In this document: positions 4,969 through 29,958 of the stretch, piece by piece | Layout: the number at the start of each line of letters is the position of its first letter | Position numbering within the stretch: position 1 is the stretch's first letter | Program-made: the position numbers and the translations under genes | The notes under the pieces: generated by a model | The model's input: only the letters and a program-made list of their open reading frames with translations | Database searches by the model: none | Told to the model about the DNA's origin: nothing | Source: Zymoseptoria tritici IPO323 | Taxonomy: Eukaryota > Ascomycota > Dothideomycetes > Mycosphaerellales > Mycosphaerellaceae | Direction of reading: 5' to 3' | Length of the DNA stretch: 64,000 nucleotides | NCBI RefSeq assembly: GCF_000219625.1 | Contig: NC_018218.1 | Coordinates: 5,642,001-5,706,000, forward strand

Positions 4969-6534
4969 TCAAACATCCTCCCCATCACTCTCATCCCCAG
5001 CCAACTTCTTCTCCCTCGCCTCCTCTTCCATCTCTCGATAAGTTGCCCAACTTAGCAAACCAAATGCGCCGATGATTAATATACCTCCCGCGACAGCTGC
5101 CGTTGTGAGCGGCGAATACAGCGGCGGCGGAAGCATTTGGTCGCACAAGGCAACCAGGAAAATGGTAAGCAGTGCCGCCACGGAACTCAGCACCGGACTC
5201 GTCAGACTGATCAGTACCAAAAAGGACCCCGAAAAAGTGGCGTTGGAGAGAACGGAGATGACGAGCATCCAAGCGGCTTCCCCGCGAGGGAGTTCGAAAG
5301 TTTCGATACCGGTGAAATGGAGAATGGGCAAGGGGATCCAGAGAACGAGGAGTGTGAAGGTTCCAATCATGCTGCCGAATGTGTTGGCGAAGAGCATACC
5401 GCGGATGGGATCGCAGTGTTCGGGTGGGCAGGCCACGCGTTTGTATAATACTTCGTAGAATCCATACAACACGCTTCCCACGCCGATGACGAGATTTCCC
5501 ACCGCGCGGTTGGAAGCTTCGCTGTCGTCTGGGGCGGAAGGGCCACCTGCTCCACCGCCGGATTTGGAGCCGTGTTTGGCTGTACCCGTGTCACCGTATG
5601 CGACGACGAGGACGCCGATGATGGCGATTGCTACGGCGATGACTTTTGATATGCGGAGTTTTTCGTGGAGGATGGGGACTGCGAAGGCGTAGGCGAAGAA
5701 GGCGGAGCAGTTGTAGATTGCGGTTAGGTCGGAGGCGGTGGTGAGGTCGACGGCGACGTACCAGCTTCCTCCGGCGACGGTGAGGGCGCAGGTGACGAAG
5801 GCGGTGGTGCGGAGGAAGTATGGCCAGGGGGAGGCTTTGGCGAGATGCGAGGGGACGACGAGGGTGCGGTGTTCGATCATCTGGGCGGTGGAGGTGAGGA
5901 GGGAGACATGGCGGCGCCAGAACGCGGGCCAGGGTTGGGAGAGTTTTTGCAGGCGGAGGATGAGCAATTGCACGACCCAGAGGAGGGACCAGGAGCCGTG
6001 GGTGAAGTAGAGCATGCAGTAAGGTTTTGTCCAATTCAGGTCGTGTTGGATGTAGACTGCTGTTTCGGTTTGGACGGCGAAGGAGAAGAGGGAGAGGAGG
6101 AGGAAGCAGCCGGCGAGAGTGTAGCGCTGGCGGGTGTTGGATTTGTCGGGGAGTATTTCTGGGTCTCTTTCGTGGAAGCGGGAAGTCGAGTGTCTTGTGC
6201 CTAAGGTGGGACGTTGTTGTGGGGGAGAGGCATAGTCTTGTTGCTTGTCGCCGGCGAGGAGGGGTTGGCGGTGGGCGGTGGAGTGGAGGTCGGAGGGCAT
6301 GTCGTCGGTGGGCTCGTCGTCGCCCCAGTCTTCGAAGCCGCTGTCGTCGTCGTCGTCGTCCGCTTCGTCTTTGAATTGGGAGGGGTCGGCGAGGGTGTTG
6401 AAGGAAGGGGTCGATTGGCGGGAGGGGTGATTGAGGCCGTTGTGGAGGTCGGAGGAGGAGGCGGCGTGGGAGGGCGGAGACAGGGACGAGTCGAGCTCGT
6501 ATGCTTGAGCGGGAGGGTGGTGTGTTGAAGGCAT
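4969..6534 (-). CDS. SLC35F-type drug/metabolite-superfamily membrane transporter
   Basis: Single exon, 521 residues. The N-terminal 130 residues are hydrophilic, Ser/Pro-rich, with an acidic run (DEADDDDDDSGFEDWGDDE). Then come about ten hydrophobic segments, starting YTLAGCFLLLSLFSFAVQ and including TSDLTAIYNCSAFFAYAFAVPIL and VIAVAIAIIGVLVVAYGDTG, the last being the typical second-half start of EamA/SLC35 transporters. The C-terminal tail is short and charged (EMEEEAREKK). This layout matches fungal SLC35F5-like proteins such as yeast YML018C and THI74 of the vacuolar membrane. Substrate unknown. The ATG at 6534 opens the frame and gives the family's usual cytosolic N-tail. Confidence 0.85.
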   Translation of the reverse strand: MPSTHHPPAQAYELDSSLSPPSHAASSSDLHNGLNHPSRQSTPSFNTLADPSQFKDEADDDDDDSGFEDWGDDEPTDDMPSDLHSTAHRQPLLAGDKQQDYASPPQQRPTLGTRHSTSRFHERDPEILPDKSNTRQRYTLAGCFLLLSLFSFAVQTETAVYIQHDLNWTKPYCMLYFTHGSWSLLWVVQLLILRLQKLSQPWPAFWRRHVSLLTSTAQMIEHRTLVVPSHLAKASPWPYFLRTTAFVTCALTVAGGSWYVAVDLTTASDLTAIYNCSAFFAYAFAVPILHEKLRISKVIAVAIAIIGVLVVAYGDTGTAKHGSKSGGGAGGPSAPDDSEASNRAVGNLVIGVGSVLYGFYEVLYKRVACPPEHCDPIRGMLFANTFGSMIGTFTLLVLWIPLPILHFTGIETFELPRGEAAWMLVISVLSNATFSGSFLVLISLTSPVLSSVAALLTIFLVALCDQMLPPPLYSPLTTAAVAGGILIIGAFGLLSWATYREMEEEAREKKLAGDESDGEDV

Positions 6535-6922: not shown

Positions 6923-7423
6923 TTAGCACATGCAACCACTGTTCAGCATCACATGCACTCTGAGCTTGACTCTCCGCAGGCAGTCCGACGCTGGCTTACG
7001 CAAGGTCCATTCGTGCCACATCCGCCGTGGGATCTTGTTGCTCGAATGCCGAAAGTCAGTTCCATCAGATCCAAAACCCATCATGTTCCGCCACTCGCTC
7101 TCGGCGGTGGCCTCGTGTCCAACCTCGTTGAAGTTGACAGGCACTCTTGCGGGGTTTTGCATGCTCGTCGACTGCTGTGGCTGAGCTGGAAGAGCTACGC
7201 GACCGTTTGCGTAGTATGGGTTGTTGGAATTGATCGGTGCCGCTAGGTTGAACTGCTGCTGGAAGTTGTTATTGTTGGCTCTCGAGTTGAGGAAACCGCC
7301 GCGGCGCCCTCATCCACGGTCGAAACCTCCTCGCTGTCCGTCTGAAGTCGAGGTTGGGTCTTGAAACCGGTTCTGGGTGAAGCCGTTCTGGTTGTAATCG
7401 AAAGATGCCTTCCCAGGAGACAT
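6923..7423 (-). pseudogene. Decayed RGG/Asn-Gln-rich protein gene with in-frame stop
   Basis: A 167-codon frame on the minus strand from an ATG at 7423 to TAA at 6923-6925 is interrupted only by a TGA at 7310-7312 (codon 38). Either side of the stop the composition is consistent: Asn/Gln-rich with RGG-like spots (GQRGGF before, RRGGF after), then FLNSRANNNNFQQQFNL, and a better conserved-looking C-terminal part with HEATAESEWRNMMGF and RMWHEWTLRK. The TGA could come from a CGA by a C-to-T change. No splice pair that cleanly removes the stop is evident. I do not recognise the family. It may be a recent pseudogene or a fragment of an RNA-binding-type low-complexity protein. Confidence 0.45.
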
Positions 7424-7910: not shown

Positions 7911-8989
7911 TTAAAACGGCACCTCCCCAACCAAATCCGTAAAAATCGCATCCTCCGGAATAACCAAATCCTTCTCCGGCGCCAATTTCTTCACCTGCCT
8001 CTCCCTCGCCCAATCCCTCACCGCCTCGAAATCATGACACTGATGCTGCCGCACGAAATTTGGCTGCGTGATAAAATGCGGATCACTCGACCACACCCAC
8101 GGCACCACCCCAATGTCCGCCCCGCACATCAATTTCTCGCGTAGGGCGTCGACGCAGTGGTTCAGATGCGCTTTCTGGACGGGCAAGGAGGCGTTGTGAG
8201 TGGAGGCGTAGTGGTCGCGGTTGAACCAAAGATTTCGGCGAAGGGCGTCCTATGATGGGATCGGTTAGCAAGGGAAGATGTGGTGGAGGAAAAAGGGGAC
8301 TGACGAGACAGTGCAGTTCGTGCACCGCTTCGAGGATCGCTATGTAGCCCGTTACATCTCCGTGCTCGTCGACGTGCATTGCGTTGTGTTGAGGGTCCAG
8401 ACCGAATATGGCGCCTTGGTCGGGAGGGATGACAAAGTAGTCGACTACGAACAGTCTTTGAGTTCTTGGCCATCTTGAGAAGAGGATTGCCACGACTTAC
8501 ATTCCACGCCCAAGTCTTCCCATGCGGCGTCCGGGTCGGATGTTTTGGGGTCGGCGGTGTATGGACTTCCCGAGAAGTTGAATGGCGAGAACCATTTGAG
8601 ATGCCACGAGCGGTCGATATCCGATAGCAGGGAACCATCTGCGGGAAGTATAAGGACGTTGCTTCTCTCTCTCTTCAGAAATGAGCTTCAAGGCAAGACA
8701 TACCGTCGACGGAGAGATCTTCGCAATGGGAAGGGGTGGGCTGACGCCGTAAGACAGCCGCTGTGATGACACTCGACGAGAGGGCGATCAACGCCCCTAG
8801 TAAAAGCAACAACGAGTATTGCAATCGTTTTGATGCGCGATGAGCTGGAGCGGTTGGGTGGTGAAAGAGAAATCCTTCTGTTTCAATGGCGGAGTCATCT
8901 GATGTTGAGCATCGCCCACCTTCGGTGTACGCTTCTTTGGACAGGTCCATGGTCGTGGAGGGAAGTAGTCCACGGCGCCGACGATTCAA
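7911..8989 (-). CDS. UstYa-family (DUF3328) oxidase, candidate RiPP cyclase
   Basis: Four exons (8989-8704, 8638-8501, 8444-8305, 8249-7911) joined in frame by three GT-AG introns of 55-65 nt give 300 residues. Residues about 57-80 form one membrane segment (LQYSLLLLLGALIALSSS), the usual N-terminal anchor. The two family hallmarks HxxHC are both present: HELHC at 183-187 and HLNHC at 216-220, the second followed by the typical DALREKLMCGAD. In known ustiloxin, phomopsin and asperipin pathways such proteins oxidatively cyclise core peptides, with the paired HxxHC motifs thought to bind metal. An ATG 13 codons in (8950) is an alternative start. It is divergent from the repeat precursor gene at 10212 across 1.2 kb, which suggests joint control and a shared pathway. 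Family call sure; substrate inferred. Confidence 0.92.
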
Positions 8990-10211
8990 TGTAGGGCCCT
9001 TGGGGAGGCCACGACACAGCAGCTTCGGTATCTGGAGGCGAAGATTCCAGATACCGAGTTGTCGAGATTCATGCGTGTCCCGAAATCATCCCGAGTTCAA
9101 TGGCACTGGCGATACGACGTTGCCATTACGAAAAGGTATTCGCCGTAGCGTTCTTCTGATCTTGTCATGCCCTGTACGAGGTTGTTCCGCACCAGTAGTC
9201 TCGCGGGGTTCCAGATGGTTCTAACGATCACCGACGATCGCATCATCGCAGTCGACCTGAACCATGTGACATGTTGCAGCGTTGACGGATCGGACTTGCA
9301 GCCGTTATCTCGAAGCAACATCCACATGGCGGTGAAGGCTCGCAAGTGTGGTTTGGCTCGTGTATCTCAAAGCTAAGGCCGGTCAATTTTTTAAGACGTG
9401 GTCATCCACCACTTAAGCCTCGAGAAGCCCGGAGCCAGCAAGATAAGCAATCCTTGACGCGCTACAGGCAAGGTGCCGATAGCTTCACCGGCACCCATCA
9501 CATGCTAGCGAGCTTGATACAGACTGTATCCTGCATACAGGAACAGCACTTACAGTCGGAAACTCAATCGATGCCCTTTCCAGGCAGGTATCGACGGAAT
9601 TTCGAGCTCATGTTGGCCCGGGGAGCGTTCAAGGGGCGGACACCAATTCATGCTCTGGGTACAGGACCTTTATTCACTAGTGCCGACGCTTGATCAGAAT
9701 GCTTCCCGGAGATCGGGATTCATACCAGGATCTCTACCTTCACGTGGCGCATGATAGCGTTCCATGGACCAGGTGACGGGTTTGATCGCGAAGTTTCCCT
9801 TCAAGGCGACAACAACCCATGCATTTGAGCAAGTTGGACCCACAATCGTCGTAAGCTTGATTTGTCGCCAGTCGTCGATGACCATTGCCGAGCCAATGCG
9901 ACTTCGACGATGGCGAGCTCTGACCGGAGATGTCGCCTTATCAGCTGTGGTATTCTGAGCTACTGCTCGTGGACACGAGACAAGGGGTAGCAACACGGAG
10001 CAACAATGCCGCCCAAAGTGGCAAAGACAGCGCCCGCAGTCTGGGTAAATTCCGAAGCGTCGAAGCGAGCCGCGGTCGACTGGCAAGACGGGAGCGCATA
10101 AGTACCTCCAAGAGGGAATCTCTCAGGCGCAGCAACCTACCTTCTACGCATCGAACATCATCTTGCTTTCCCAAAGGGCATTCCAAAGACTCCGACCAGA
10201 ATCTGTTCAAC
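8990..10211. other. Divergent intergenic region of the UstYa/precursor pair
   Basis: 1.2 kb between the start codons of the UstYa-like gene and the repeat precursor. It must contain both promoters. A minus-strand frame at 9694-10086 has some protein-like stretches (WSMERYHAPREGRDPG) and could be an old gene remnant, but it has no family resemblance I can name. Confidence 0.45.
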
Positions 10212-11092
10212 ATGAAGCTCACCAACATGCTCCTCATGGCCACGCTCGCCGTCGTGGGTTTCGCATCTCCGGTGGACCGTACGTTTCGCTCGACGCGCCG
10301 ACTACCAGCTCCACCATGCCATGCAACGTGAAAGCTGACAACGTTCCAGGTCGAAGCCAGCTGGCGGATTCTTGCTACGGTCCTCCCGGCTGCGCTGCAG
10401 TGGAGGAGCAGAAGCGCGCCATCAGTCCATCTGTCGAGTCTTACGACGGCGCCAGCGTCGAGACCAGGAGCCAGCTGGCGGAGGAGAAGCGCGCCATCAG
10501 TCCATCAGTCGAGTCTTACGACGGCGCCAGCGTTGAGGAGAAGCGCTCCATCAGTCCATCAGTCGAGTCTTACGACGGCGCCAGCGTTGAGGAGAAGCGC
10601 TCCATCAGTCCATCAGTCGAGTCTTACGACGGCGCCAGCGTTGAGGAGAAGCGCTCCATCAGTCCATCAGTCGAGTCTTACGACGGCGCCAGCGTTGAGG
10701 AGAAGCGCTCCATCAGTCCATCAGTCGAGTCTTACGACGGCGCCAGCGTTGAGGAGAAGCGCTCCATCAGTCCATCAGTCGAGTCTTACGACGGCGCCAG
10801 CGTTGAGGAGAAGCGCTCCATCAGTCCATCAGTCGAGTCTTACGACGGCGCCAGCGTTGAGGAGAAGCGCTCCATCAGTCCATCAGTCGAGTCTTACGAC
10901 GGCGCCAGCGTTGAGGAGAAGCGCTCCATCAGTCCATCAGTCGAGTCTTACGACGGCGCCAGCGTTGAGGCCAGGAGCCAGCTGGCGGAGGAGAAGCGTA
11001 CCGAAAGTCCAGACGTGGACGCTTACGACGGCACCCTCGTCGAGGCAAGGAGCCAGCTGGCTGCTTCCGTCTACGGCGATTCGACGGAGTAA
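10212..11092 (+). CDS. Secreted Kex2-repeat peptide precursor, candidate dikaritin RiPP precursor
   Basis: Two exons (10212-10278 and 10350-11092, 71-nt GT-AG intron) encode 269 residues. Residues 1-19 are a signal peptide (MKLTNMLLMATLAVVGFAS). The rest is built from 18-residue units with eleven Lys-Arg pairs at 44, 69, 87, 105, 123, 141, 159, 177, 195, 213 and 238. Ten units carry the core ISPSVESYDGASV; the last is divergent (ESPDVDAYDGTLV). Most KR pairs are preceded by Glu-Glu, as in ustiloxin-type precursors. Cleavage after KR by the Golgi protease Kex2 would release peptides of the type SISPSVESYDGASVEEKR. Each core has one Tyr, the residue whose ring is cross-linked in known dikaritins. 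A second motif RSQLA flanks the array four times. A UstYa-family gene lies divergently upstream. Alternative: an unmodified Kex2-processed peptide (pheromone-like or surface-acting). Confidence 0.87.
10535..10966 (+). repeat. 54-bp tandem repeat array, eight units, inside the precursor gene
   Basis: Eight consecutive 54-bp units starting GAGGAGAAGCGCTCC appear identical or nearly so at the DNA level, each coding 18 residues. Two earlier units (from about 10403 and 10478) and one later unit (about 10991) are more diverged. Such sameness at silent sites points to recent expansion or gene conversion. Copy number is likely to vary between strains. Confidence 0.95.
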
Positions 11093-11677
11093 AAACACGA
11101 CTGCGCTGGTCCATGGAGAGCTCCCTGCCAAGGCGGTACTCGCAGCTATTCCCCTGGAGCGGAAAACTTGCGCCCATCGGCGAGAGATGGCGCAAGGATC
11201 AAAGGAGCCTCTGCTATTGGCGATGGAATGATGGCTGTGCCCGGTATTCTCAAGATGGCGTAGCTAATGCTTGAAATCGACAATGGTTCGCTGATCTCTC
11301 ATGTCCTTGGTCGTGTCTTTTGTCCCAGTGAAAGGTCGTCGTTGTTGCTCTTGTAGGCGCATTCTTGGTTGTAGTCGAGTGTTTATGCAGAAGAGCAGCC
11401 ATACGGCCATACGACTCGGGAACAGTGTGATGATCTCTCAGTGTGATGATCTCTCAGCGTGATGATCTCTCAGCGTGATGGTACGGCCGTCCTTGGGCTC
11501 TGCTGCCTCTACCGCGTTCGTCTAGGATGAAATAGATTGATCGCAAAAGCGGTGAGTTCGAGACGCGTTTCAGCAAGGCTACGATGTCGTGCCCCCGTCC
11601 CAATTACCTCATCGTTAACTCCATTAACGCCGTCCCTGCCGTCTTCCTCCTACATCATTCACACTCTTACTCTTCCC
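11093..11677. other. Intergenic with a 16-bp minisatellite
   Basis: Between the precursor gene and the aldo-keto reductase. Holds the short tandem repeat at 11425-11481; otherwise nothing recognised. Confidence 0.5.
11425..11481. repeat. 16-bp tandem repeat, about 3.5 copies
   Basis: Units of GTGTGATGATCTCTCA, the later ones with GC in place of GT at the start, run head to tail downstream of the precursor gene. Non-coding minisatellite. Confidence 0.85.
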
Positions 11678-12924
11678 ATGTTCCGCCTCCTCCCCAAACT
11701 CTTCCATCATACCATCAAGCCTCAAGCCCGACCCTTCACAACCACAACTCCATACAAAATGCCTCTCCTCGCCGCCGGCACGGGCAAGCCCCGCGTGATC
11801 CTCGGAACCATGACCTTCGGGCCCGACCCCGCCCAAGGTGCCCGAGTGACCTCTCTCGACGAATACAAAAAAGTGCTCGACACTCTCCAGCAGAACGGAT
11901 ACCACGAGATCGACACCGCGCGAGTCTACGTCGGAGGTCAACAAGAAGCTTTCTCCCGGGAAGCAGGCTGGAAAGACCGCGGCCTGAGCGTGGCTACGAA
12001 ATGGTATCCTTTCCAAGCGGGAGCTCATCAGGGCGACAAGCTCGAGGAGCAGTTGAACAAGAGTTTGGAAGAGCTGGGAACGAATTGTGTGGATATCTTC
12101 TACCTGCATGCTGCAGACCGAAGTTTGCCTTTCCAGGAGCCACTGAAGAAGCTCAATGAGCTTCACAAGGCTGGCAAGTTCGTGCAGTTGGGATTGAGCA
12201 ACTTCACTGCTTTTGAGGTCGCCGAGGTGGTCATGCTCTGTATTCAAAACAACTGGGTCCGGCCTACCATCTATCAGGGAATGTATAACGCCATTCAGAG
12301 GAACATTGAACCCGAGCTCATCCCGGCGTGTCGACGGTACGGCCTGGATATCGTGGTTTACAACCCGATCGCAGGTGAGTTGTGAATTGGATCAGGTCTG
12401 CAGTAGCCCAAGACCGACCATGGGAGTGCCAGCAGATCTTACTCCATTGAAACCTCGTTGGCGAGACCATAGCTGACATAAACACGTCTCCGCCAGGTGG
12501 TATTTTCTCAGGCAAATACAAGACCAACGAGATCCCGAAGGAGGGAAGATACAGCGACGTCAACGCCAAAGTCGGCCAGAACTACCGCAAACGATACTTC
12601 CAAGACGCAACGTTCGATGCGCTCCGACTTATCGAGCCAGTGGCTGAGAAGCACAACCTCACATTGCTGGAGATTGGCTTCAGATGGGTCGTCCACCACT
12701 CCAAGCTCAAGGTCCAAGACGGTGGAAATGATGGCATCATCATCGGTGTATCAAGTTTGGCACAACTGGAGTCGAATTTGAAGGACATCGAAAAGGGACC
12801 TTTGCCGGAGGAGGTCGTGAAAGTGCTGGACGAGGCGTGGCTGATTACCAAGCCGACGGCAGCGGTCTACTGGCATTTGGATCTGGAGTACAAGTATGAT
12901 ACGCTCAAGGCGTTGTTGGCGTAG
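11678..12924 (+). CDS. Aldo-keto reductase (AKR7-like, aflatoxin-aldehyde-reductase group)
   Basis: Exons 11678-12374 and 12497-12924, joined by a 122-nt GT-AG intron at the GGIFSGKY motif, give 374 residues. Family marks: PRVILGTMTFGP at the start of the barrel, EIDTARVY with the catalytic Asp-Tyr, VATKWYPF with the Lys, DIFYLHAAD with the catalytic His, QLGLSNFTAFEV, and IIIGVSSLAQLESNL near the end for NADPH binding. AKR7 members reduce aldehydes such as succinic semialdehyde and dicarbonyls. An in-frame ATG at 11759 (MPLLAAG) starts the enzyme proper; the upstream 27 residues are basic and Ser/Thr-rich (RLLPKLFHHTIKPQARPF) and could be a mitochondrial targeting signal. It lies 0.6 kb after the peptide precursor on the same strand; a tailoring role there is possible but unproven. 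Confidence 0.88.
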
Positions 12925-14257: not shown

Positions 14258-15892
14258 TCACCTCCCCGTCGCCCCACCATCCGTCCGTCCATCCTCCTTC
14301 CCCTCCCCCTCCTCCTGCTCCCCACTCAAATAATCCGCCTTCTCCGCCGCCTCATACTCCCCAACCAAATCCATCACCACCTCCTTGCTCTCGTCAAACT
14401 CCCCGAAACCATCTCGAAACGAGTCGTAGCGCTTATACTGTTCGAGATACGCGTTGCGGTTGCGCATGCGGTCGTACTGCCAAACGATGCGCTTGAAGAG
14501 GGTCGCGATGCCGGTGTGGTTGGCGAGCATGAGGCCGGATACTCGAGGGGGTGGGGTCGAGGTGTAGGGTGGGGAGAGGTAGGGAGATGTGCGGGAGAGG
14601 GCGACTTGGATTGAGGCGGGGCCCCAGGGGATGAAGGAGGCGAGGGAGCGTTCGCGGATGCGGAGGAGGGATTTGTGGACCTGAGAGGTGGTGTTAGCTG
14701 GGAATTTTTCGGTATTTTGGGAGGGGGGCTTACGTCGGTGGGATCGGCTTCCCCCATGATGATATTAAGGATGGAGATGTAGCAACTCGACTTGCTGGGC
14801 TTCGTCGAGACCATTTGATTCTTCGGTTGCAGCAGTCGACGCATAACGTCCAAGACGGTGGTTTTTCGCACAGTCTTCGCGGCTTCAACATTGTCGCCTG
14901 TGAAAGGAGTGTAGCTAGTCTGGAGGAAATGACATCGCGGGGTGGGAATCAAGCTGGCCATAATTCCTACCAGATCGTTGTGCATGTAGCCCGGGTATCT
15001 CAGTGTTGTGGTCGCAGCGGACATGACCGTAGCGACGAGCTGGTTTGTTTGTTGGAGGGAAGGTTTCTGAACGTGGAGGGTGTCTGCTGCGATTCGGGAG
15101 AGAGCGCCGTTGTCGAGGACTACAACAGCATCGGCATTTTGTGTAAGTCGTCGCAAGGCGAGGAGGGAGTTGTATGGCTGCACCACGACGTCTCCCGAGC
15201 CTTGACCTTGCGTATCCGGGAAGACAGAGTACGTCTGAATAATCTTCTTCGGGAAGCGGTCGTTCAGTCGTTCGAGCAGGAAAGATCCAAGTCCAGATCC
15301 TGTACCACCAGCAATCGAATGCAGCAGCATGAATCCCTACTCCATATCAGTATCCACATGTCCACTCCTTCTTCTGACAGCATCTCACCTCCAAACTATC
15401 ACTCCCATCCGCCTCCCGATCAATCATATCCATCAACTCATCCTGCACCGTCGCTCCCATATCGAACCCAGCCGCCCAATTGTTTCCCGCGCCCGCTCCC
15501 TCTTTATGCACATAAAAGTTCTCCGGATTGTAGATATTCTTATACGGCCCAGTCTGAATGCCATTGATCACACGCGGTTCGAGGTCGAGGAGGATCGCAC
15601 GGGGGATGTATCGTGTGTCGTCGGATTGGTAGAAGAAGACATCTTTGCGGTCGCCGCCGGAGGTCGCAAAGTCTTCGAGATTCCCGTCTTGGTTGATGCC
15701 GTGTTCAAGGCAGAGCTGTTGCCAGAATTGGGAGCCGACTGCGTGGTGACATTAGCATGGGTCGTGGGACTGGATGAGGGTGGTGGTACTCACCGCTGTT
15801 GCCGCACTGGCCGGCTTGGAGCGTGATGATTTCACTGAGAGCGAAAGTTAGATGAGGCCTTCTCTCATTGAGGTCACGACTTACCGCGGCAT
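14258..15892 (-). CDS. Gamma-tubulin
   Basis: Five exons: 15892-15885 (8 nt), 15834-15794, 15738-15389, 15336-14734 and 14680-14258, all joined by GT-AG introns of 50-55 nt, give 474 residues. It begins [16 protein letters not shown], the gamma-type N-terminus, and carries the tubulin GTP-binding loop in [15 protein letters not shown], then the gamma-specific TYSVFPDTQ and KYNPENF-like [10 protein letters not shown]. The last exon contains [19 protein letters not shown] and ends in an acidic, Glu/Gly-rich tail ([11 protein letters not shown]). Gamma-tubulin nucleates microtubules at spindle pole bodies as part of the gamma-tubulin complex. The first coding exon of 8 nt and the 41-nt second exon are typical of how fungal tubulin genes hold their introns near the 5' end. 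Confidence 0.96.
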
Positions 15893-25618: not shown

Positions 25619-28600
25619 TCACATCCAGAACATCTTGTCGTCCAGATTTGGGTGCCAGGGGTTCTCGCGCCCTGCGCCACCGCGCTGCCACGCAATGTTC
25701 ATTTGAGATGCAACCACTGCCGGAGTCGCGTTCGCAACCATGGTAGAGTTCTCGTTGAAGTGATACAAGTATAGCATGAGCCGCTCACACAGCTTGTCGG
25801 CGGCGTACACTGGGGCAGGGTACGACACTGCACTCGTGGAATGTTGAAAAGTGTAGCAGAAGGAGTTGGTGAGATCCTGCAACTCAGCCTCCTTGAGCTT
25901 CATACCATTTTCGAGCACGAAGTAGTGAGTTGGCTTGGCCGAGCCTTTCTCCACGTCGTGAGACTGGAGAAAAAAGTCCATGTAGAGAGGCGATGTGATA
26001 TGCGTATCAACAACCATTCCTGGCTTGCAGTTCCAGGTGGCGGTCATGTTCTCATCCTTATCGCTGAGTGGGTAGAAACGGGTGTTGTGGCGTTTGACGG
26101 CGACAATGCATGTGACTTCCACAGGCTTGGGCGCTCTCATCGTTTGTGCGGCGTTGAGGTTGCTCCAGGCGGTCTTGATGGCGCTAATCTCCTGCAAGAT
26201 TCCAGAGTACTGACTGAGACCAGTTCCGTCTCGGAAGTAGATGATGCGAGTCGGAAGACCTTTGGTAGTCGTGTCGCTCTTGATCCACGCCTTCATGCGC
26301 TCAGTGACCATGCTCTTCATGTTCGCAGGCTCGATGATCTCTTGGCCGCCCTGCTGACGACGAGCGGAACCCAAGAGCTTACCGAAAGTCGCGTTGACAC
26401 TTCCAACTACCGCCGCAATGGTGGGCGTGCCAGCTGCACATCTTTGACCGGGATGAATCAAATCAGCACCAAGTACCAAAGTATCGGAGAGATTGCCTTT
26501 GAGAAGTTTCTTGAAACCGTCTCTCACGGTGTGATTCTCGTTGCCAAAGCGAACGTTGATCTTCATCGCATTGTTGGCCATGTATGCTGTCAAATTTCCT
26601 GGCTGAGGCCTGCCGCCACACATCGTCTTCTCGTTCAGTACAATCGATGTGCATCCGAGCAGCTGATCAGTGACGATGCGAAAGCTTGCGTATTGTTGGC
26701 GATACAGTTTATTATCGTCGGGCAGAATAAGCACAGACAGATTGGCCTTGCGCCTCTTGTTGATGTCAGAGAGTTCACCGCAAAGAGGATTGACATCACC
26801 GATGTCCTGGCCGATGTGAACAGGATCGAGTTCCTGGTTGACGTTGTTGGCTTGACGTAAATTCAGCTGAAAAGTGTTCATGAAAGCATCAATGTAGGCC
26901 CTTTCGTGTGCCGGTTTGCGACCCTTCAGATGAAGGAAACTGACCATGCCCTTCTCCGGAATCCGCTTTGCATGAGTGAGGAACTCTTGACCTCTGGTGC
27001 TCCATCCTGCAGACTTGTCAGGGTTGGCTGTTTTGTTGCCGCCGGCGTAGACAATCGCTGGGTTGTTGACTCTACGGAATGGCACCTTCAGCATCTTTGC
27101 CGCCACGGTCATGCCTGCGTCTCTCAGAGCCTGGAGTTGCGGCAGGACGATATCCGCATTCGTGCTGGATGCTGTGAGGCCAAGAGCTTGAAGTCCGGCC
27201 GAGGTGATCATGCCCTTGTTCGCAGCGGGTGTCTGGCATGCCAGAGTGATCATTTCTCCAGGCAATTCTGAGTTGACACGATCAAGCGTCTTGCGGAAAA
27301 TCTGGCCGGGTAAAATTTCAAGCTGATCTGGTAGAAACCAGCATTCTTTGCCTTCCGTTGTACTGCCGGTATTGACACATATCTGATTTCCTTTTACAAC
27401 AGACGCGCCTGCGGGAATAGGATAAGTCTCCTTGAAATGCTGCCAGACGGAGACCATTTGGCCGTTGCGATCGAAGAGTGTTTGAGATGCGAGGCCGGCC
27501 GAAAAGCCAGTGATTGTCTTGATACGCCTCTTCGGAGAGTCAATGGCTGGATCTCCGTCCGGCTTGCAGCGATTGTACATAATTTTGACCCGTACTCCAG
27601 TCAAATGTTGTGCACCTTGCCCGCGAGGAAAGGCGCCAGGATCGGTTCGATACGTTTCGATGACATTGAGGACCTTCTGCTGCTGGTAGAAGGCACTCAA
27701 AGCAGTGTTGATGTTGAGTCGTAGCGCGCCGTCCACTGGCTGGACACTGCTCGAGTACCCTCGCATGGCCACCAAGCCGTGGCTCTGAGGCAGTGGCGTT
27801 TGACCCTGCGGGGTGAAGAAACGGTTGTCGCCGATTTTGATGACGGCTGCCTGTCCGATGTTGGCGTTGGCGGTACGGGTACCGGAGCTGATGAGAATGT
27901 CCAGCGCTGAAGCCGCACCTGTGTCTTCGTAGGTCGGATTCTGATGTTTGGCGAAGGACAGCAGCCCATTGAGGTCGATCACACGCTTGAACACGACATC
28001 GATGTTGAGCTGTCTCGAAACCTGGCCGGGTAGGTCGCGGCTGTAGTCGTCGACCGGTGTGGTATCGACAATGTCCTCTTTCTGAGCGCCCGGCGACAGA
28101 TCATTCCAGGCGATGATTCTGCCATGGTCGTTGCATGCGAAAGCGTTCTGGTTGTCGCGCAGAATAGGCGAACTGTCAATCTTGCGCTGGATGATGACCT
28201 TCTTCTTCGAACGGGAGAGGTCTGCCGCGGTATTCTGAAGCCCAACAAGTTGATACTCGTACAGCTTCGTATCAGGTTTCAGATCAATGGTGAAATGGTT
28301 GGTGAAGACTTTGGGCGCCGAGGCAGGGGCGGCAGGACGGTCAGGACGCTTGATACCGGTTGGTCCATTGCGCTGTGTCGTGTGCTGATCATCTGAAGCA
28401 GTGCCCACCAGTCCGGACAACGGAGCAGCAGGGTTGGAGGCTGCGGTGGTGGATGTCCCAGTCGTAGAGTTGTTGCTTGCAACCTGCTGGGGCGGTGGCG
28501 CGGCATCTTTCAGGTTCAGGGAGCTTGGAGTGGAGGAGTCGCCAATAGAAGTCTCGTTGACCTGCTGAGGTTGCTGAGCGGTGTCAGACAGGTTCAGTGC

Positions 28601-29029
28601 GCCGAGCTGGGCAGTCGCAGTCTCGAGGTTTGAGGAAGTTCCTGCCACGGCAGAGGCCGCAGAGGACGATGTCGTTGGCGTGCCATTGACTTGCTGGAAG
28701 GCGTACTCCAAGTGCTGTTTGGTGACGGCCGGAGGATATTTGCTGGACAGCTGATCGGCAATTTGATCCACAATGGTGTTATGAGGCCGAGCGGATCTGT
28801 GGTCTTTGTGGGCTTGCTTGCGTAGGTCGGTAACCGTCTGAAGAAGTTCACGGCAGGAGGCATCATCGGCGAACATCTCGGATGGTTTGCAGCTCTTGTC
28901 ATTCGGGAAGCGGGACCACAACTCAGACGCATCCTTGTTTTGGTTGCATTTGAGGAAATCTTTTGAGCCGGGGACACAGGCCTCCTTGTGGGATGGACAT
29001 CTCAAGCACCAAGTACCTGCTTTAGGCAT
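25619..29029 (-). CDS. Argonaute (RNA silencing slicer, QDE-2-type)
   Basis: Single exon of 1,136 residues, long for the family because of a 240-residue N-terminal extension. That extension starts MPKAGTWCLRCPSHKEACVP with a CxxC pair plus further Cys (a zinc-ribbon-like cluster by eye) and then Ser/Thr/Gln-rich sequence. The core runs N domain (NHFTIDLKPDTKLYEYQL), linker, PAZ, MID (NLSVLILPDDNKLYRQQY) and PIWI. Catalytic aspartates are visible: D856 in LVLGADLIHPG, D934 in YFRDGTGLS and D1078 in PAPVYAADKLCER, so the slicer site looks intact with Asp in the fourth position, as in other fungal Argonautes. The protein ends FWM rather than the usual FYA/FYV. Expected role: binding small RNAs for quelling-type silencing of repeats. 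Confidence 0.93.
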   Translation of the reverse strand: MPKAGTWCLRCPSHKEACVPGSKDFLKCNQNKDASELWSRFPNDKSCKPSEMFADDASCRELLQTVTDLRKQAHKDHRSARPHNTIVDQIADQLSSKYPPAVTKQHLEYAFQQVNGTPTTSSSAASAVAGTSSNLETATAQLGALNLSDTAQQPQQVNETSIGDSSTPSSLNLKDAAPPPQQVASNNSTTGTSTTAASNPAAPLSGLVGTASDDQHTTQRNGPTGIKRPDRPAAPASAPKVFTNHFTIDLKPDTKLYEYQLVGLQNTAADLSRSKKKVIIQRKIDSSPILRDNQNAFACNDHGRIIAWNDLSPGAQKEDIVDTTPVDDYSRDLPGQVSRQLNIDVVFKRVIDLNGLLSFAKHQNPTYEDTGAASALDILISSGTRTANANIGQAAVIKIGDNRFFTPQGQTPLPQSHGLVAMRGYSSSVQPVDGALRLNINTALSAFYQQQKVLNVIETYRTDPGAFPRGQGAQHLTGVRVKIMYNRCKPDGDPAIDSPKRRIKTITGFSAGLASQTLFDRNGQMVSVWQHFKETYPIPAGASVVKGNQICVNTGSTTEGKECWFLPDQLEILPGQIFRKTLDRVNSELPGEMITLACQTPAANKGMITSAGLQALGLTASSTNADIVLPQLQALRDAGMTVAAKMLKVPFRRVNNPAIVYAGGNKTANPDKSAGWSTRGQEFLTHAKRIPEKGMVSFLHLKGRKPAHERAYIDAFMNTFQLNLRQANNVNQELDPVHIGQDIGDVNPLCGELSDINKRRKANLSVLILPDDNKLYRQQYASFRIVTDQLLGCTSIVLNEKTMCGGRPQPGNLTAYMANNAMKINVRFGNENHTVRDGFKKLLKGNLSDTLVLGADLIHPGQRCAAGTPTIAAVVGSVNATFGKLLGSARRQQGGQEIIEPANMKSMVTERMKAWIKSDTTTKGLPTRIIYFRDGTGLSQYSGILQEISAIKTAWSNLNAAQTMRAPKPVEVTCIVAVKRHNTRFYPLSDKDENMTATWNCKPGMVVDTHITSPLYMDFFLQSHDVEKGSAKPTHYFVLENGMKLKEAELQDLTNSFCYTFQHSTSAVSYPAPVYAADKLCERLMLYLYHFNENSTMVANATPAVVASQMNIAWQRGGAGRENPWHPNLDDKMFWM

Positions 29030-29958
29030 GGCGGCGTGGTTGAAGTCTGGTGGTTTTGAAGGCTGTGAGTTCGAGTTGAATGAAGACGCTTCAAAGTTGA
29101 AGCTGGGGGCAACGGTTGGTTATGAAAGTAGGGGTGGGAAACGGAGACGGTGAGAATGGTGGAAGAAGGAAATGGTTGGAGAGCAAGAGCCTGAACGTAT
29201 ATCAGGAGGGGAAAAGCTCGCAAACATAATCCGCTGAAAGAAAGTCTGTAGCAATCGATGTTGACAATGCAACACCTTCTTGGACCTTCGAGCATGCAAG
29301 CAGTTCAATGCTATTTGCGAGTCTTGCTAGAACGTGCTGCAACATTGTGAAAGGAATCTGTTTGGCGTGTCGGCCAGAGACAAGGGATGCATTGTCGGTT
29401 TGTGCGTATGCAGTTTGCAGTATGGAGTTTGTCATTGTTGAGTCGAGAAACGCCTGGCAAGAGGGACCCGGGCTTTGATGACAGTGGTTGCCATCTTCAT
29501 GTAGGTTCTGAGAGCAATAGCATCACCGTATGGCTTGCCAGGTCATTCTCGCGAGCGGTGATATAGCAGAGCGACAATACAGCAAGCTGCATGACTGCCA
29601 GGTGAGATCCTGTAGGCTGAATAGTGAGGCATTAGCATGTGAGGCGACTGTGGCACAGCAATTATGGATTGAAGTCGAGATGAATGCGATGAATGTCTCG
29701 ACGGTTGTTGTGAGATCGAGGTGATGTGGAAAAGGTACCTTAAAGTAAGGCAAGAACAAGGTCGTTGCTGCCTGAGGCGCCAAATAGAACTACTCGAGCA
29801 AGCTTGACAGACATCTTGATTCCCGATCGACATCATGCTTCACTTCACTTCTGATCGCTTTAAAGTAATCGCTGGACGATTGATAGGCTGACGATTGCAA
29901 TGGACTGAACGAGAGCTGCCATGGTCGTCCTCATCCCGAGACCATAATCCATAGCGTT
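29030..29958. other. Divergent intergenic region
   Basis: Upstream of both Argonaute (minus) and VPS23 (plus). No convincing coding frame. Confidence 0.5.

Follow-up and report, generated by a model that had tools for sequence, protein, structure and literature searches.

The window analysed here, a 64 kb stretch of chromosome 1 of Zymoseptoria tritici IPO323 (C1:5642001-5706000), contains two genes in divergent orientation: a UstYa-family gene (DUF3328, PF11807) on the minus strand at 7911..8950 and, on the plus strand at 10212..11092, a gene for a putative secreted Kex2-repeat precursor (KEP). The UstYa gene was modelled from sequence with four exons (8950-8704, 8638-8501, 8444-8305 and 8249-7911) encoding 287 aa, and all three introns (8703-8639, 8500-8445 and 8304-8250) have GT..AG boundaries. 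The encoded protein carries two HxxHC motifs, HELHC (residue 170) and HLNHC (residue 203), and matches PF11807 with 145.5 bits (E 2.8e-42, cut-off 25) along the full length of the Pfam profile (positions 4-220 of 220), bearing out the first-pass annotation of a gene with both motifs of the UstYa family. A hydrophobic stretch was noted by eye at approximately residues 45-67, and the protein looks membrane-anchored. Searching the protein database returned a partial model from the same strain, MYCGRDRAFT_27270, at 100% identity over 61% of the query, with 175 of its 178 residues matching exactly, as well as a Z. brevis homologue with 73% identity over the full length, which is probably the orthologue. 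The PDB sequence search with this protein gave no relative up to E 10, and an AlphaFold2 model of the Z. brevis homologue was set aside (pLDDT 41, two-row alignment).

The precursor gene model comprises two exons encoding 269 aa. Exon 1 (10212..10278) translates to MKLTNMLLMATLAVVGFASPVD, which by eye has the typical look of a signal peptide at the N-terminus; after an intron of 71 bp (10279..10349, GTACGT..CAG), exon 2 (10350..11092) encodes a leader remnant (RSQLADSCYGPPGCAAVEEQ), eleven KR-led units and the stop. Within exon 2 lies a tandem array of a 54-bp unit in 9.1 copies with 99% matches (10481..10970), the sole such array that the KR-repeat finder reported in the 64 kb. A second frame is open across the array too, and the frame joined to the signal-peptide-like exon is the KR frame. 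The units are arranged as a 23-mer and an A-starting 16-mer, seven identical 16-mers (SISPSVESYDGASVEE) from which the A-starting one differs by A for S, an S-starting 23-mer, and a diverged C-terminal stretch of 30 aa (TESPDVDAYDGTLVEARSQLAASVYGDSTE) that runs to the stop. EE precedes ten of the eleven KR sites and EQ the first; one Tyr is present in each of ten units and two in the last, with one further Tyr in the leader. The first-pass annotation had described a divergent gene for a secreted precursor of eleven KR-bounded units, mostly after EE and each with one Tyr. The divergent layout, the eleven KR sites and the ten EE pairs agree with this description, and the bounding by KR with a single Tyr holds for ten units and fails for the last, which has two Tyr and no closing KR.

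The most diverged unit, the last, still reads SPxVxxYDGxxVE, with S, P, V, Y, D, G, V and E in place, suggesting from this one unit that these positions are under constraint. A module RSQLA occurs four times in the precursor (in the leader, both 23-mers and the last unit), which suggests that the 16-mers multiplied after an older, longer unit had been shortened by seven residues. Pfam gave one family above cut-off, DUF3106, which matches part of the array (31.5 bits, cut-off 24.3) and is taken for a composition artefact, and the Mating-factor domain of ascomycete alpha-type pheromones was absent from the Pfam matches of the precursor up to E 1. At E 10 the protein database gave no relative of the precursor, either among the 7,999 candidates that had the most words in common with it or among 139 candidates compared separately; the word-based first step of this search has its own limits. 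A local search of the precursor against itself scored 524 bits; repeat filtering during scoring is therefore not enough on its own to account for the missing identical record. Protein searches, one of the checks proposed with the first-pass annotation, gave the 73% UstYa homologue in Z. brevis and no precursor relative. The core string and gene names led to no paper in the library covered by a literature search.

The two start codons are separated by an intergenic stretch of 1.26 kb (8951..10211), a candidate shared promoter region in which two ORFs (9286-9690 and 9697-10122) have no Pfam match. Downstream of the UstYa gene, Pfam identifies an EamA-like transporter gene (4969..6534, minus strand), which was missing from the earlier account of the neighbours, and a GDPD gene lies on the same side of the pair. 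A long, coding-like frame at 6923-7420 (minus strand), between the transporter and UstYa genes, contains one in-frame stop, which may reflect an intron, a decayed gene or chance. On the opposite side, a two-exon aldo-keto reductase gene (11678..12924, plus strand), with aflatoxin B1 aldehyde reductases as its nearest solved relatives, is followed by genes for gamma-tubulin (14377-15336, minus strand, some 3 kb away from the precursor), a protein with a PI-PLC-X domain, Nop16, a Zip transporter and an Argonaute with a Piwi domain by Pfam (25622-29119, minus strand). The gap from the precursor to the aldo-keto reductase contains a 16-bp tandem repeat (11423-11480, 3.6 copies, 97% matches). Ustiloxins bind tubulin, and the tubulin neighbour was examined for this reason; antimitotic self-resistance through this gene was rejected, as comparison with solved relatives gave 305.5 bits for gamma-tubulin vs. 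135.6 for the best beta-tubulin. Elsewhere in the genome, a tubulin-domain fragment occurs in an open frame of 103 aa at C21:87468-87743, C21 being perhaps an accessory chromosome. The Pfam scan covered 54 of the 58 window ORFs of at least 110 aa, the other four (7914, 8165, 8678 and 10049) being exons of the pair itself, and detected no tyrosinase, methyltransferase or peptidase domain among the 54; in the UstYa search of the whole genome, the window has one listed place and no second UstYa. Across these ORFs and that search, the statement in the first-pass annotation that tyrosinase, methyltransferase and a second UstYa are all absent has stood.

The UstYa profile gave 61 exon-level matches in the genome (39.69 Mb, 21 contigs). 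Around such matches, 26 regions, each 7 to 10 kb long, were read, with the places at C2:830k, C5:2138k, C7:842k, C4:1991k, C2:3319k and C6:1989k left out. A KR-repeat finder identified further KEPs beside UstYa genes in six of the 26 regions (L016, L024, L028, L030, L031 and L040), each less than 3 kb from a UstYa match. Readings of the same arrays in other frames (L016, L024, L028, L030, L031 and the window) were dropped before this count, as was an RR-spaced repeat, L034, that the KR-only scan does not report. The same finder located no KEP in the other 20 regions; therefore, a UstYa gene by itself is no proof of a precursor. The repeat units of the further KEPs are GEWDYEPTPHYYPPAADSANIPVE on contig C3, DPEAQRGGIMDYI on C6, DEAYDYPRDSGYSFITKPEEETEQKVKA and TDDGDDAAVYAYAPS on C2, and YEGDVEWKDKT on C7, and in the C13 precursor (L031) two kinds of unit, DGPKDPLTDSEVWFA and DEDRPDSEVWLG, alternate. 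The cores differ among all six, all six starts look signal-peptide-like by eye (five with a tentative intron after the start, one within the same exon), and all seven paired precursors, like the YVIP-type precursor described below, carry a Tyr or Trp within their unit.

With the window included, five of the seven pairs are divergent and one is convergent, and in L040 the KEP stands between two UstYa genes; at least five divergent pairs of seven would arise with p = 0.013 under a one-in-four expectation. As an estimate only, made with the number of KEPs assumed to be 10 to 100 and that of UstYa genes 42, 100 randomly placed KEPs would put approximately 0.6 within 3 kb of a UstYa gene. In a paralogue tree built on 36 UstYa C-terminal fragments, from the regions read and the window and spanning at most 75 columns, the window UstYa falls nearest to the KEP-paired L016 (41% over 61 columns); the KEP-paired members are scattered, and the tree was given no weight. 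A precursor of the YVIP type (L042) starts at C4:1706288 with nine 48-bp copies of the unit AEAVEDYVIPVDKT-KR, the closest UstYa match being approximately 14 kb away. The core named for Zymoseptoria in a published survey is YVIP (PMC7329392), and antiSMASH-predicted fungal-RiPP clusters are reported for Z. tritici (PMC8939313). The six further pairs suggest that the peptide stock is larger than the one core named for the genus in that survey (PMC7329392).

The survey recorded 7,878 KEPs in 1,461 fungal strains, of which 1,758 (22%) lie no more than 15 genes from a UstYa gene; such pairs are most numerous at the next gene, and Tyr occurs in 65.6% of the repeats of UstYa-associated KEPs vs. 38.2% of other repeats (PMC7329392). 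As given in one operational definition, a dikaritin locus consists of a UstYa/DUF3328 gene near a signal-peptide precursor that has tandem repeats between kexin sites (PMC9632046). Measured against the terms of that source, the window locus has a DUF3328/UstYa protein with two HxxHC motifs, and its tandem repeats between kexin sites exceed the minimum of 10 aa, the usual unit being 16 aa plus KR. The Ding criteria for a dikaritin of the phomopsin/ustiloxin type name a tyrosinase, multiple DUF3328 proteins and a methyltransferase in the cluster (PMC12048977); none of these three features is seen at the window locus, which has one UstYa place and no tyrosinase or methyltransferase among the 54 ORFs scanned out of the 58 that reach 110 aa. 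The first-pass annotation had read the pair as dikaritin-type with "exactly such a precursor" as the ustiloxin, phomopsin and asperipin pathways. As an assignment of the gene pair this reading is well supported; the word "exactly" goes too far for a locus with no EDYxI motif, no tyrosinase found and one UstYa. The DNA itself shows how both genes are built, their divergent arrangement, the motifs, the array and the repeated co-location of such pairs, and the pair is likely to be a UstYa-modified RiPP locus, in the minimal two-gene form of the dikaritin type with one UstYa and one KEP.

Kex2 cuts after KR in the Golgi, and KR tails are trimmed by a Kex1-type carboxypeptidase. Provided that both genes are expressed, the precursor would enter the ER by its signal peptide, and Golgi Kex2 would cut after KR to release eight 16-residue peptides, (A/S)ISPSVESYDGASVEE, together with longer end pieces. 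After trimming of the KR tails by the carboxypeptidase, the UstYa of the pair would oxidise the peptide at or near the Tyr of each unit, most likely forming a cross-link, and the finished product would be exported. The route outlined for ustiloxin likewise runs through secretion, Kex2 cutting at KR, UstYa oxidation and export (PMC7329392, PMC9233826).

The chemistry of any ring should differ from that in ustiloxin and phomopsin. The ustiloxin and phomopsin precursors have in common the core motif EDYxI (PMC6339444), which is absent from the window precursor, where VESYDGA or VDAYDGT stands instead. Ustiloxin and phomopsin close their ring through a link from Tyr to Ile at the third core position (PMC7329392). 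At this position, the second residue after the core Tyr, all eleven window units have Gly, making the Tyr-Ile link impossible here, and so any ring in this peptide must close away from the third core position. The YVIP-type unit and the usual window unit both read V-E-x-Y and both have seven residues from Tyr to KR; by this analogy the window core may likewise start at Tyr, and may be Y-D-G-A within VESYDGASV. The cyclic product with loss of 2 H put forward in the first-pass annotation is an inference; for the linear 16-mer SISPSVESYDGASVEE the calculated [M+H]+ is 1655.728 (2+ 828.368), and losing 2 H would give 1653.713 (827.360). Given Gly as the third core residue, either the ring lies elsewhere or the UstYa has another activity.

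The second of these possibilities, in which the UstYa modifies the peptide by hydroxylation, chlorination or a similar reaction and forms no ring, gains from the impossibility of the known Tyr-Ile link and from the hydroxylation and chlorination attributed to UstYa-family proteins in the cyclochlorotine pathway (PMC12048977). It appears improbable nonetheless, since cyclisation in the known KEP pathways requires UstYa-type proteins according to the survey (PMC7329392) and Tyr is retained in all eleven units. Somewhat less remote, and still unlikely, is a precursor that yields unmodified linear peptides, as an alpha-pheromone-like signal or an antimicrobial, beside a UstYa that serves another substrate or is a chance neighbour. 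Approximately 78% of the surveyed KEPs have no nearby UstYa gene (PMC7329392), this genome is rich in UstYa genes (the 61 matches, and the 36 C-terminal fragments that the window and the other regions read contain), and several neighbours, such as gamma-tubulin, Nop16 and Zip, are housekeeping-like. However, a chance neighbour fits poorly with the six other KEPs found beside UstYa genes, mostly in divergent order, and pheromone-type KEPs in the survey's account have no UstYa neighbour, with three exceptions (PMC7329392).

The regular KR sites, which lead every unit and follow EE in ten of eleven cases, also argue against a secreted repeat protein (a wall protein, adhesin or effector) that stays uncut at KR. 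Wall proteins can carry near-identical tandem units as well, and this likeness is the point in favour of such a protein; with DUF3106, a presumed artefact, as the sole Pfam family above cut-off, we consider it very unlikely. The UstYa-modified RiPP locus is retained as the preferred reading. Counting against it are the lack of a tyrosinase, methyltransferase, peptidase or second UstYa among the window ORFs scanned, the precursor's lack of relatives in the protein searches, and the 20 regions where the KR-repeat finder saw no KEP. On the preferred reading the window pair is a further example, with its own precursor, of a kind of system that is already known and common. More speculatively, Z. 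tritici could have at least seven private UstYa-precursor pairs in addition to the YVIP-type locus, all with unlike cores, and the window pair could form a cross-link of an as yet undescribed kind, between Tyr and a position other than the third core residue; we regard this combined claim as possible and rather doubtful. The value of the locus lies in a specific, testable precursor, not found in the searched protein database, in a major wheat pathogen, and a cyclic product would show UstYa activity where the known ring-closing residue is missing.

Among known systems, the closest published layout is the asperipin-2a locus of Aspergillus flavus, in which, as in the window, a repeat precursor is accompanied by one UstY gene (PMC7329392). 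The transporter and reductase in the window recall that layout too; their families are possibly unrelated and the genes possibly outside the locus. The ustiloxin and phomopsin loci, together with the YVIP-type precursor of this genome, have the KR-spaced repeats and the V-E-x-Y core start in common with the window, whereas in comparison with ustiloxin and phomopsin the window has no EDYxI, Gly in place of Ile at the third core position, no tyrosinase found and a single UstYa. A tyrosinase is needed in the ustiloxin and phomopsin pathways, whose UstYa-type genes number two and five, respectively (PMC7329392). UstYa-type proteins are also used in pathways that are not of the RiPP kind (PMC12048977), a further point against the preferred reading. 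The nine dikaritin clusters described in Venturia inaequalis resemble the window in having a UstYa gene near a precursor with tandem repeats between kexin sites and with a signal peptide, judged by eye for the window precursor; some of those clusters are expressed during infection (PMC9632046). Additionally, the epichloecyclin precursor GigA is, like the precursor predicted here, secreted, repetitive and multi-core, and is thought to be processed by Kex2 (PMC9233826).
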